A stretch of DNA of 23,263 bases. It comes from a virus. The position numbers and the translations under genes were made by a program. The notes beneath the pieces are model-generated. The model worked only from the letters and a program-made list of their open reading frames with translations. It searched no databases and was not told the DNA's origin. Of this stretch, positions 1,231 to 22,738 are shown one piece after another (within the stretch, counting starts at the first letter, position 1; the number at the start of each line of letters is the position of its first letter). The stretch covers positions 1 to 23,263 of IMG/VR virus record IMGVR_UViG_3300045118_000117; one strand, given 5' to 3'.

Positions 1231-1259
1231 TTGACTTTACAGGGAAAAGTGTTTATCCT
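1231..1259 (+). promoter_or_regulatory. Promoter for the structured RNA and virion operon
   Basis: TTGACT (1231-1236) is followed by 17 bases and TATCCT (1254-1259), which predicts a start near 1266. The -35 matches 5 of 6 and the -10 matches 4 of 6 positions. No T-rich terminator is seen between here and the terminase gene at 1621, so the transcript probably carries the structured RNA as a long leader. Host promoter consensus is unknown, so this is a sequence match only. Confidence 0.5.
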
Positions 1260-1318: not shown

Positions 1319-1518
1319 TAATGTTGGAATGTGGCTGAATAATCCTCGTGCTATGGGATAAGGCATTGTCCGCAGAAGTATGTCCGAATGGATGAGGTCT
1401 GTGGGGACAAGTAGCGTAGGCAAACCCAACTTGATGTTAAATCAACCAAGGGATAGTAGCACAAAGCCGAAACTTGCGGGTAAGGTTCTAATCCAATCGT
1501 CCCGCCATTCCAACATTA
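1319..1518 (+). ncRNA. Large structured RNA of unknown class upstream of terminase
   Basis: A perfect 13-bp helix (1319-1331 with 1506-1518) closes about 200 nt. Nested inside are 1333-1336 with 1465-1468 (GGCT/AGCC), 1348-1353 with 1457-1462 (GTGCTA/TAGCAC), a long hairpin of 1366-1371 with 1405-1410 (TTGTCC/GGACAA) continued by GCAG/CTGT with a GG bulge, a small hairpin TTGAT/ATCAA (1431-1445), and GCGGG/CCCGC (1476-1480 with 1501-1505) stacked directly on the closing helix. The loop of that last hairpin holds GGTTCTAATCC, which resembles a tRNA T-loop. All helices are compatible with each other. GC is about 46%, clearly above the flanks. It has no 3' CCA, no tag reading frame, and no group I, RNase P or SRP hallmarks that I can recognise. 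It may be a cis-acting leader such as an antitermination or packaging-linked RNA, or a processed trans-acting RNA. Confidence 0.65.
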
Positions 1519-1620: not shown

Positions 1621-3576
1621 ATGGAAGAAAGAAATCCAGTAAAAGAAAAATTTGACAGGGGTGAAAAACCGAAGTATATTTGGCAGAATGAATTGAAGCA
1701 TTTGGCTAACTTCCAAAAATTCTTCAAAAGCATAGATGCTGTATTCAATAGGGTTAGGGGTGACAGAAAATGGCATCAGGATAAGAAATCCCGCTTATAT
1801 CAATTTTTAATAAATAATAAAACTTGGGAAATAAAAGATTATAAAACTGCCCATTCGCTCTTACAAGCATTCTTAAAAACCTATCAGCCCGCTTATGACA
1901 CTCTATTGGAGGTTGACGATTTCGCACTTTTGGAGATTTTGAACTACGACTATGGATTTTCACTTTATGATGTCGTAGTATCATTCTTTGATGCAGAGTA
2001 TTTTTTTAGAAGGTTTTTTGAACCATTAGTAAATCTCGCACCCAAACAGCGTGAAATTTTACATACCACTTCATATTATGATTTAGTCACCATCAGGAGT
2101 TCTACTGCGTCAGGCAAATCTTTTTCTACTGGAAGAATAGCGGGTTTTTGGTGGCTTGTCACTCGCAGAAACTCAAAGTTAGTGATGACAGCACCCACCT
2201 CACGGCAAGCCATTAACATTTTATGGAGTGAATTTAAGCAGTGTTTTTATGATTTCAAAAGGCGTTATCCCGACTTTGCCGCAGAACAATGGAGGCAAGA
2301 GCCAAGAAATGTAACCTACTACGAGGGAGTTTGGAACTTATCAAAGGAAGGAGAACAGTGGCAAGCACTTTGTTTTTCCACAAAAGATTATTCGCCAGAA
2401 AGTTTGCAGGGTTTTCACTCAAAGTTTATGATGGTTATAGTGGACGAAGCGTCTGGCGTTAAGGAAAACATTTATTCTGCGTTAGACAGAATACTTACTG
2501 GAAGCCAAGTTTCAAAATATATTTTAGTTGGAAATCCAACAAGAACATCAGGATTTTTTTATGATAGCCACAGGGCTGACAATACTGTTTTCAGGAAAAT
2601 TCATATTTCTGCTTTTGACAGCCCCAATGTAATTCTTGATTTCCTTGAACAGAAATCTTATTATCGTTTCAAAAATATAAAGAAAAGATTGAATTTGAAA
2701 GAACAGAGATATTCTATGCTTGATATAGTCCTTGGATATGAGGTTAAAGTTCCAAGCGTTAAGCAAATTTCTGGTCTTATAACCATAAAAGATGTTATCA
2801 AATATGTTCATCTTTATGGAATGGATAGCGATAAGTTTGGAATTGATATTCTTGGAGAATTTCCAAAATCTTCTGGGGATTACTTGATGACAAGAGAACA
2901 AATAGAAACTCTAATTGATGGTTCTTTTCCCAAAGAAATTTCCCTTGATTGCCAATTCGGCATAGACCCAGCGACTGGTTCTTCAAAAGATGGGGGTTCT
3001 GCCACAACATTTGCTTATCGTAATGGCAAGTCATTATTGGCTGTCTATAAAACAAATGTATCTGGCGATGATGCACAAATACAGGAATTTAGAAAGTTCT
3101 ACGAACAATGCCAAAAGCCAGAAGGTCTTGATATTAAAAGCGTCCCAATAGTCATAGACAGGGCTGGAATTGGTTTTAATCTTTATGAAAGAATGAAAAC
3201 GAATGGATTTAATGTAGATGGATTTACTGGTCAGGAAGTTCCGATTGAATATCATAATCAGGAAAAATATGCCAATAGGCGTTCAGAAGCATTTTTTACA
3301 CTATTGGAAGCAATAAAATCTGGTATTGGAAGTTTTATTAAACATCAGGCATTATTTCTTCTTTCTTCCATTTCTTATTCAACGGATAGGCGTGGCAAGA
3401 TAGTTCTTATCCCAAAAGAAAAAATTATTATTCCCGATAGGGACAAGCATTTATTGGACATTTTAGATGCAGTGGCTCTTGCTTTTGCACCCACTCTTAA
3501 AAAAAATTCAGCCAATTATAGGGTTGGAGAGAAGTTTTTTGATAATATTGCCAGATTTTGGCAAAGACCAAGATGA
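1621..3576 (+). CDS. terL: Terminase large subunit (DNA packaging motor)
   Basis: This 651-residue protein is the packaging ATPase-nuclease that pumps DNA into the prohead through the portal and cuts it. The N-terminal ATPase domain shows a Walker A-like loop at about 161-167 (STASGKS, without the first conserved Gly), Walker B VIVDEA at 272-277, and the coupling motif VGNPTRTSG near 303-311. The C-terminal RNase H-like nuclease shows FGIDPATG (Asp449), VIDRAG (Asp513) and a late acidic motif LLDILDA (Asp613, Asp616), the usual metal ligands. About 130 residues precede the ATPase fold, which is longer than many TerL proteins. GGCGGG lies about 9 bases before the ATG, one of few possible ribosome sites in the window. 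No small terminase subunit is visible in this window. The next gene starts on its stop codon. Confidence 0.93.
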   Translation: MEERNPVKEKFDRGEKPKYIWQNELKHLANFQKFFKSIDAVFNRVRGDRKWHQDKKSRLYQFLINNKTWEIKDYKTAHSLLQAFLKTYQPAYDTLLEVDDFALLEILNYDYGFSLYDVVVSFFDAEYFFRRFFEPLVNLAPKQREILHTTSYYDLVTIRSSTASGKSFSTGRIAGFWWLVTRRNSKLVMTAPTSRQAINILWSEFKQCFYDFKRRYPDFAAEQWRQEPRNVTYYEGVWNLSKEGEQWQALCFSTKDYSPESLQGFHSKFMMVIVDEASGVKENIYSALDRILTGSQVSKYILVGNPTRTSGFFYDSHRADNTVFRKIHISAFDSPNVILDFLEQKSYYRFKNIKKRLNLKEQRYSMLDIVLGYEVKVPSVKQISGLITIKDVIKYVHLYGMDSDKFGIDILGEFPKSSGDYLMTREQIETLIDGSFPKEISLDCQFGIDPATGSSKDGGSATTFAYRNGKSLLAVYKTNVSGDDAQIQEFRKFYEQCQKPEGLDIKSVPIVIDRAGIGFNLYERMKTNGFNVDGFTGQEVPIEYHNQEKYANRRSEAFFTLLEAIKSGIGSFIKHQALFLLSSISYSTDRRGKIVLIPKEKIIIPDRDKHLLDILDAVALAFAPTLKKNSANYRVGEKFFDNIARFWQRPR

Positions 3577-20041: not shown

Positions 20042-20314
20042 ATGGAAAAGAACGAAGTATTAACGCTTGTAGAAAAATTTTTCGGTCTTTTAATAGATGA
20101 ACCGATTGGCATAGAAATCAAAGAAGAACAAATTGTATCTGATGGCGAAGTTAGAAAAACTGGCTATAATGTTTTAATTGACGCTCCGCAAGACATCAAA
20201 AAATTCTTGATAGGAAAAAGCGGCAGAACTGCTAAAAAATTGAATTATCTATTTGGACAGATTGTTTCTTTTAGGCGTGGTCGTGTTTCAATCACATTAT
20301 TTATTAAGCCGTAA
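20042..20314 (+). CDS. KH-domain RNA-binding protein, KhpA-like
   Basis: This 90-residue protein is probably a single type II KH domain that binds RNA. It resembles bacterial KhpA along its whole length: an N-terminal helix (VLTLVEKFFGLLIDEP), strands (IGIEIKEEQ, GYNVLIDAP), then the core IGKSGRTAKKLNYLF with the GxxG loop GKSG at 58-61, and a final strand RVSITLFI. Family KhpA proteins have IGKQGR-A at the same place. Bacterial KhpA works with KhpB and binds many small RNAs and mRNAs; phage copies are not well known to me. It is preceded by the same leader element as a virion gene and followed by a hairpin. The structured RNA at 1319-1518 is a possible, untested partner. Confidence 0.75.
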   Translation: MEKNEVLTLVEKFFGLLIDEPIGIEIKEEQIVSDGEVRKTGYNVLIDAPQDIKKFLIGKSGRTAKKLNYLFGQIVSFRRGRVSITLFIKP

Positions 20315-20899: not shown

Positions 20900-21032
20900 T
20901 TTATGTCCAAAATGTAAGAAGGAGATGAAACGCTATTTAATGGGAAAAAGAGAGGGTATATGGATAGCCGTAAAATATGTGGCGATATTTTTTGCAGTTA
21001 TTTTTCTAATAATTTTTCTATTAAATCTATGA
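20871..21032 (+). CDS. Small CxxC tail-anchored membrane protein
   Basis: This 53-residue gene is short and easy to miss. It starts at ATG 20871 inside the holin end and stops at TGA 21030-21032, overlapping the next start (ATGA). The acidic N-terminus is followed by CPKC at 12-15 and a basic stretch (KKEMKRYLMGKREG), then a very hydrophobic C-terminus (IWIAVKYVAIFFAVIFLIIF, about 30-50). This is the form of a tail-anchored protein with a half zinc knuckle or redox pair. The place directly after a holin suggests an auxiliary lysis factor or antiholin. The overlaps on both sides are strong support for its being real. No family is recognised. Confidence 0.7.
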   Translation: MDNQEDNPSNLCPKCKKEMKRYLMGKREGIWIAVKYVAIFFAVIFLIIFLLNL

Positions 21033-22738
21033 GAGAATATACAGAACGCTCTATTGTTATCGGAGATTTACACATTCCATTCCAAAATAAACAAATTGTT
21101 GATTTGGTAGTGCAAGATTTCATTCCATATTTCAATCCGCATATTGTTTTCATCAATGGCGACCTTCTTGATTGTTGGGAAATTTCCAAATTTGAAAAAC
21201 CATTAAATATACATAGCCGTTTGAGAGATGAAATTTTACAGACAAATATATTTTTGAGAGATTTAAGAAAAAAAGCCCCAAGAGCAAAAATTATTTATAT
21301 TTTTGGCAATCACGAATTTAGATTTGAAAAATTCATATCCAAAAATGCAAAAGAATTATATGGATTATCTGGTCTTTCATTGGAAGAACAACTTAATTTA
21401 GATAAATTAAAAATTCAGGCAATCAATAATCATCAAAGAGAAAATTATTTTAGATATGGCAAATTGTTGATTGGTCATTTTAATAAGGCAAATAAACATT
21501 GCTTATTAGAAGATACAGAAATTTTAACAAAGAATGGATGGAAAAAAATTGATACCATAAATGAAAATGATATAATAATAAATGTTGTTCAAAAAATTGG
21601 CGAACCATCACTTTCTATTGCCGAGGATAAAGTAATCAAAAAATATATTTATGGAGGACAAAATGAAGTTTATTTTGTTGGTGGGAAAAATGGAGCAGTA
21701 TTTGATTTCGTGGTTACGCCAGAACACGAATTGATTTATAGAAGCAGTAAAAGAAAGGGATATATTTTCAAAGATAAAGCAAAAAATGTTTTCAAAAGAA
21801 AAATGGCAGGAACAATTTTACCAGTTGCCACTCAAAGTAATTTGCCAGAATATAACATTAAAGATGATTTATTAAAATTGATTGCTTGGATTATCACAGA
21901 AGGACACTTTCGGCAAAAATACAATTATATTTATATTTATCAAAATGAGGGTTCTAAAAGTAAAGAAATTAAAAAAATCTTAATTACTCTTAAAATTTCT
22001 TTTACTATCCAAAAAAAATATAATAAAAATGGAAAAAAACATATAGTATTTAATTTGGGAAGAAACAAGGATATTTTATCACTTATAAACAAAAAAATTA
22101 TTCCCGATTGGGCATTCCAATTAAGCGATAGACAAACAAAATTATTTATTGATGAATTGATTAAGGGAGACGGGCATAAGGGCAAAAAAGAAAAAATAGG
22201 AAGTTATTTTTCGGGAAGCGAAGAATTGATAGACAAATTACAAATTTTAGCCATAACTCACGGATTATGTGCCAACAAAACTATTATAAATTCTAAACCG
22301 AATAAAACTTATTCTTTATATTTTTCAGATAGGCAATGGAGGCATTTATCTCAATATATTGAATTACAGAATGTTAATCAGAAAGTATGGTGTGTTTCCA
22401 CGCTTAATGGGACGATAATAACAAGAAGAAATGGAAAGGTCATCATTGTTGGAAATTCGGGTTATACCGCTAAAAATCTTGTAGAAGAAAAAGGAATGTC
22501 GGTTATACAAAATCATACTCATAGGGGCGGAGTATCTTATAAAAGAGATTATGACCGTCTAAAAGTAGGCGTTGAGAACTTTTGTCTCTGCGACCTCAAT
22601 CCCCCATATTGTTCTATTCCAAATTGGCAAAATGGATTTTCAATAATAACAAAAGATAAAAAATCAGATTTTTTTTCTATTGAGCCAAAAATTATTGTTA
22701 AAAATAGAATTATATATAGGGGAAAAATAATAGAATAA
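21029..22738 (+). CDS. Calcineurin-like metallophosphoesterase interrupted by an intein
   Basis: This is a 569-residue precursor. The start is put at ATG 21029 because it overlaps the previous stop (ATGA); an upstream ATG at 20960 lies in another gene's frame. The host enzyme has the binuclear metal motifs GDLH (12-15), NGDLLD (43-48), GNHE (93-96), GH (149-150) and, after the intein, NHTHR (495-499; usually GHTHR). Such enzymes hydrolyse phosphoesters; phage versions are often thought to act on nucleic acids or nucleotides, but the substrate is unknown. Residues 158-476 are an intein. Splicing would join ...NKANKH to SGYTAK... and restore a protein of about 250 residues. Without splicing the last metal ligands stay separated, so activity probably depends on it. 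Confidence 0.88.
   Translation: MREYTERSIVIGDLHIPFQNKQIVDLVVQDFIPYFNPHIVFINGDLLDCWEISKFEKPLNIHSRLRDEILQTNIFLRDLRKKAPRAKIIYIFGNHEFRFEKFISKNAKELYGLSGLSLEEQLNLDKLKIQAINNHQRENYFRYGKLLIGHFNKANKHCLLEDTEILTKNGWKKIDTINENDIIINVVQKIGEPSLSIAEDKVIKKYIYGGQNEVYFVGGKNGAVFDFVVTPEHELIYRSSKRKGYIFKDKAKNVFKRKMAGTILPVATQSNLPEYNIKDDLLKLIAWIITEGHFRQKYNYIYIYQNEGSKSKEIKKILITLKISFTIQKKYNKNGKKHIVFNLGRNKDILSLINKKIIPDWAFQLSDRQTKLFIDELIKGDGHKGKKEKIGSYFSGSEELIDKLQILAITHGLCANKTIINSKPNKTYSLYFSDRQWRHLSQYIELQNVNQKVWCVSTLNGTIITRRNGKVIIVGNSGYTAKNLVEEKGMSVIQNHTHRGGVSYKRDYDRLKVGVENFCLCDLNPPYCSIPNWQNGFSIITKDKKSDFFSIEPKIIVKNRIIYRGKIIE
21500..22456 (+). mobile_element. 319-residue intein with LAGLIDADG homing endonuclease
   Basis: Block A starts at Cys158 (CLLEDTEILTKNGWKKI), block B has TPEHELIYR (Thr230, His233), the endonuclease motifs are LLKLIAWIITEGH (281-293, Glu291) and FIDELIKGDGH (373-383, Asp381), block F/G runs from VWCVSTLNGTIITRR to VIIVGN, and the +1 residue is Ser477. 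The penultimate residue is Gly rather than the usual His, a variant also known from other inteins whose end is GN|S. Both splice junction nucleophiles are intact, and both endonuclease acidic residues are present, so it looks active. It is more A-rich than the host gene, consistent with recent entry. Confidence 0.9.

Follow-up and report, generated by a model that had tools for sequence, protein, structure and literature searches.

Positions 1319-1518 of IMG/VR virus record IMGVR_UViG_3300045118_000117, a stretch of 23,263 nt that was analysed whole and is here called the window, almost certainly specify a structured RNA homologous to manA RNA (RF01745), and the form present here is a variant of the manA class in which the closing helix is long and is not preceded by a GACG hairpin (Table 1). 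The preliminary description had left this RNA unclassified; by all indications it belongs with manA as a divergent relative missed by strict Rfam searching, in that no family reached its cutoff when the window was scanned at the gathering threshold, whereas a permissive scan (1 kb, all families) returned manA RNA with 24.9 bits (E=3.7e-4), a score that falls below the RF01745 cutoff of 55.2 bits. Matches to Phe_leader and miRNA families at 910-1024 were dismissed because they arise from a long intergenic inverted repeat at 923-1017 (arms near 937 and 1004). BLASTN with the window RNA against phages recovered a 22-nt chance match only.

We then relied on a covariance model (R1) of 19 related phage RNAs, several of them above the RF01745 cutoff, that excluded the window together with L027 and L029, the relatives closest to it. 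R1 aligned to the window over the full model with 50.5 bits (E=1e-12, R1 E-values being rough owing to a short calibration), and the next best place in the window scored 9.5 bits. A motif from the window had been the search seed for these relatives, so accidental matches to it in bacterial coding sequence (14-24.5 bits with R1) were taken as the noise level, and the window scores twice that level. The window contains the manA core GUGRCUGAAUAA, P2 and UAAGG (1330-1363), followed by the P3 helix 3' of the core, together with the closing helix P1 and the abutting 3' hairpin P5. The hairpin with a GACG-type loop that lies just 5' of P1 in manA is absent; a weak hairpin at 1311-1326 could form only if the outer pairs of P1 opened. 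We considered a switch between this hairpin and P1, for which the possible pairing is the sole support. Given the score cutoff and the missing 5' hairpin, the window RNA is formally not a member of RF01745. That a real RNA of some unrelated new class should resemble manA by chance nevertheless seems extremely improbable: the RF01745 score does lie under the curated cutoff and the search for relatives started from a motif of the window, but R1, which lacks the window, matches over its full length far above accidental scores, and L027 and L029 bridge the gap between the window and manA.

Table 1. Features of the RNA and its immediate surroundings in the window.
Feature	Position	Strand	Remarks
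manA-related structured RNA, long-P1 variant (whole element)	1319..1518	+	R1 model match 1326-1511; RF01745 match 1311-1511
P1, 5' strand of 13-bp closing helix	1319..1331	+	perfect complement of 1506-1518; relatives pair with differing sequence
P1, 3' strand	1506..1518	+	perfect complement of 1319-1331; relatives pair with differing sequence
Invariant strand UGGCUGAAUAA	1332..1342	+	identical in all aligned relatives, but served as search seed
P2 hairpin AUCCU/GGGAU	1342..1359	+	98.5% of cells paired; double changes in 4/6 pairs
Conserved AAGGC 3' of P2	1360..1364	+	UAAGG kept in relatives; partly search seed
P3, UUGUCC 1366-1371/GGACAA 1405-1410	1366..1410	+	outer helix 91% of cells paired; double changes in 5/5 pairs
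P3 inner part, GCAGA/UCUGU and GUCC-GAAU-GGAU hairpin	within 1366..1410	+	read from sequence
GUAG linker (1411-1414), variable P4 region, CUU before P5	1411..1475	+	
P4-region pairs GGC/GCC and UUGAU/AUCAA	1419-1421/1466-1468; 1431-1435/1441-1445	+	by eye against L029
P5, T-arm-like hairpin GCGGG/CCCGC, T-loop UUCUAAU (1486-1492) on inner GG/CC stem	1476..1505	+	100% of cells paired in relatives
Possible sigma-70-type promoter TTGACT-17-TATCCT	1231..1259	+	9/12 consensus matches
terL, terminase large subunit, first gene downstream	1621..3576	+	PHROGs phrog_2, E=7.6e-32

Several properties noted earlier hold for the window itself. The closing helix of 13 perfect base pairs lies exactly where it had been placed, GC content is raised (46% in the element versus 35% across the window and 33-37% on its flanks), and the claim of a non-coding RNA of about 200 nt agrees with the coding potential, the only frame of note across it (65 aa, 1380-1577) having no PHROGs match. 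On its own, the 13-bp inverted repeat is weak evidence for an RNA, since dinucleotide shuffling of the window leaves a perfect repeat of at least 13 bp within 300 nt in 32 of 100 cases, and the excess in folding energy is modest (-62.1 kcal/mol for the 200-nt fold, z=-2.24, with 5 of 200 shuffles equally stable). In P2 and P3, moreover, the comparative core departs from the single-sequence minimum-energy fold. With a modest z-score and an inverted repeat that is common in shuffles, the single sequence is insufficient to settle the matter, and it is the relatives that settle it: judged from their alignment, which is decisive, 1319-1518 is a real folded, non-coding RNA.

Scanning viral contigs with two core patterns, GTGGCTGAATAA-gap-GGNTAAGG and a variant, yielded about 60 loci; among the first 32, eight lie above the RF01745 cutoff and some 24 match RF01745 at E <=0.001 per record. 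The common anatomy reads, 5' to 3', P1, UGGCUGAAUAA, P2, UAAGGC, P3, a GUAG-type linker, P4, P5 and P1 again. Across 34 aligned relatives including the window, standard pairs occupy 94.8% of pair cells and 23 of 29 pairs show double-sided changes; because this alignment was fitted to the structure, we note that a MAFFT alignment, not so fitted, already has double changes in 22 of 29. Covariation, proposed earlier as a check, is strong (score 0.742, against 0.198 in shuffled and at most 0.176 in slid controls, with no shuffle reaching the observed value), and no protein is conserved in place of the helices. All five helices, P1 to P5, are conserved and covary in the relatives. P4 is 86% paired there; in the window it is poorly paired in the R1 alignment, where the fourth helix is matched partly, and another pairing is possible by eye. 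Within the invariant strand of the window, GCU at 1334-1336 pairs with GGC at 1362-1364.

The relatives fall into two architectures. Most of those with a short P1 (4-6 bp) have, 5-9 nt 5' of the core, a hairpin whose loop is usually GACG, whereas the window, L008, L020, L027, L029, L039, L049 and L059 have a P1 of at least 8 bp and no separate 5' hairpin of the GACG kind. By automatic call, the split between long-P1 and hairpin types gives a Fisher P of 0.02, and a clean division is only moderately supported because that call counted short hairpins overlapping P1. Among ten long-P1 sequences, 8.0 of 8 inner P1 pairs are kept, versus 3.8 of 8 after strands are swapped between sequences; these relatives differ at a mean of 5 of 8 inner P1 positions and retain all 8 pairs. 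(A MAFFT alignment of the long-P1 set misaligned the 3' half and was set aside.) Patterns specific to the subtype of the window matched in L029 and L027 only.

The last hairpin had been described as stacking on the closing helix and carrying a T-loop-like sequence; P5 does abut P1 and contains GGTTCTAATCC at 1484-1494, with the window T-loop closed by a G-C pair at 1485-1493. In relatives, the T-loop pattern is kept almost throughout (closing pair G53-C61 in 31/31, U54 in 29/31, A58 in 31/31 and Y60 in 31/31), and by this conservation pattern P5 behaves as a T-arm. Stacked together, P1 and P5 would form a tRNA-elbow-like end.

Two further kinds of arrangement came to light during these searches. 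L055 (2846-3209) and L044 (1860-2221) each hold a tandem pair of manA-type RNAs separated by 4 nt, outside any tRNA setting. A pattern search of genome contigs gave mostly chance matches in coding sequence, except for L070 and L072, two Acholeplasmataceae MAGs in which a structured-looking element of about 430 nt (L072:1270-1720 and L070:540-1005, both on the minus strand) opens with a GTGGCTGAATAA-P2-TAAGGC core and has a last hairpin that directly adjoins a long closing helix. This element has no Rfam match of its own, is present in 2 of 88 Acholeplasmataceae genomes, and is followed downstream by a terminator-like hairpin and a c-di-AMP riboswitch.

Weinberg et al. (2010; PMC2864571) put manA RNA forward as a candidate riboswitch, and its Rfam type, 'Cis-reg', follows that proposal. 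The RNA can also adjoin tRNAs, as noted in the description of megaplasmid pMP7017, which lists one copy (PMC10832533). On that plasmid, manA sits between tRNA-Phe and tRNA-Arg; in Synechococcus phage S-CREM1 it is wedged between tRNA-Leu and tRNA-Asn with at most 1 nt to spare, and in Rhodococcus phage Francesca its neighbours are tRNA-Met, about 3 nt away, and tRNA-Lys, about 1 nt away. Overall, a tRNA lies within 300 nt at 12 of 48 distinct loci, compared with 4.1 under random placement, and the gaps are often 6-7 nt. Phage tmRNA genes occur near the manA-type RNA in L003 and L045, as does one on pMP7017, and ARAGORN calls a tmRNA in L038. In L016 and L017, the RNA is flanked by a gp32-like single-strand-binding gene and, next downstream, by a convergent gene, which in L016 is a tape-measure gene 6 nt past the RNA, and the genes downstream at other loci of the class are mutually unrelated. 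This genomic context makes the cis-regulatory label of the manA class doubtful. The placement of the window RNA at the head of a virion operon is correct as to location, terL being the first gene downstream, but does not extend to the class, whose downstream genes are unrelated.

In the window, neither ARAGORN nor Rfam models found a tRNA or tmRNA. The promoter candidate in Table 1 comes from a consensus scan, which found 6 sites versus 2.9 expected. A search for relatives of the window TerL recovered only L002 and the distant L075, and neither has a model match in its available DNA. The non-coding left end of the window also holds three copies of a hairpin, GTTGCT-loop-AGCAAC (118-132, 800-814 and 1300-1314, the third directly before the RNA), and, at 7-38, a perfect inverted repeat set between runs of A and T, resembling a bidirectional terminator. 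Toward the other end are a 90-aa protein (20042-20314) with a GKSG stretch that by eye looks like a KH-type RNA-binding domain, for which Pfam and PHROGs gave no confirmation, and a metallophosphoesterase gene (20960-22738) with an internal LAGLIDADG homing-endonuclease domain, probably an intein.

Because members of the class occur in tRNA arrays, between convergent genes or before unrelated genes, we consider it likely, on the strength of the class, that the window RNA acts in trans as a free-standing molecule. Its transcription would precede that of the late operon or accompany it, P1 would hold the two ends in place, and P1 stacked on the T-loop hairpin would present the elbow-like end. 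During infection, the RNA may act on a partner common to many phages, and its location before terL would be incidental. The partner would most plausibly be the tRNA or translation machinery, a target suggested tentatively by the neighbours and the T-loop end and on balance doubtful. Against a trans-acting RNA, the window has no tRNA and the RNA is placed before terL as a leader would be; placement in tRNA arrays could, besides, merely reflect a shared transcription unit. The main rival, that the RNA is a leader (for example a riboswitch) acting in cis on the terL and virion operon, is rather unlikely. The RNA is on the same strand as terL, 103 nt upstream, and heads a long run of plus-strand genes, the RNA in L027 also precedes a terL (one unrelated to that of the window), and both the original proposal and the Rfam type favour regulation in cis; however, downstream genes are unrelated across the class, many members are found within tRNA arrays or ahead of a convergent gene, the RNA of L029 precedes a different, non-terL gene, and positions 1518-1621 offer no evident terminator-like or start-site-masking alternative, although this is a weak test.

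Adjacency to terL in both the window and L027 could also point to a packaging RNA or terminase cofactor working with the neighbouring TerL in the manner of phi29 pRNA, but this is very improbable: members of the class do not in general lie near terL, the two TerLs differ in length and Pfam score, and L002, whose TerL is 56% identical, lacks any such RNA in the sequence upstream of its terL, a limited test since the contig offers only 253 nt there. An RNA with no partner of its own, whether selfish or a structural spacer such as an RNA-processing or transcript-stability module, would suit the patchy distribution, the tandem copies in L044 and L055 and the variable surroundings; strictly conserved unpaired bases and the T-loop pattern instead suggest a specific partner, and no linked coding sequence or mobility signature accompanies the RNA, which leaves this reading improbable. 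Extending the trans-acting interpretation to the whole class, it is quite possible, if short of probable, that manA RNAs are trans-acting molecules that share a tRNA-elbow-like end and are usually produced and excised along with phage tRNAs, and that the window represents a tRNA-independent form at the head of a late operon, in which a long clamp helix takes the place of both the array setting and the 5' hairpin.

Cumulatively, these results link an orphan RNA with a catalogued class that goes undetected in strict searches, broaden manA to many phages and to a second architecture, and cast doubt, through context, on its cis-regulatory label; because S-CREM1 and Francesca are isolated phages, the question of manA function is directly testable. 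The window RNA shares with RF01745 the same core, P1, P3 and P5 in the same order, a distribution in phages and an unexplained function, and differs from it in having a P1 of 13 bp rather than about 5, nothing of the GACG hairpin 5' of P1, an enlarged P5 loop with an inner T-loop stem, no adjoining tRNAs and no metabolic gene downstream. GOLLD and ROOL are likewise phage-encoded structured RNAs, often near tRNA islands and of unexplained function (PMC12286853); they are several times longer, unrelated in sequence and without a match in the window. Compared with tRNA and tmRNA, the window RNA has no recognised D-arm, anticodon arm or tag frame, and its P1 sequence is not conserved, but like them it sets a closing helix on a hairpin that resembles a T-arm and follows the conservation pattern of a T-loop, and tRNAs and tmRNAs occupy the same arrays as other members of the manA class.
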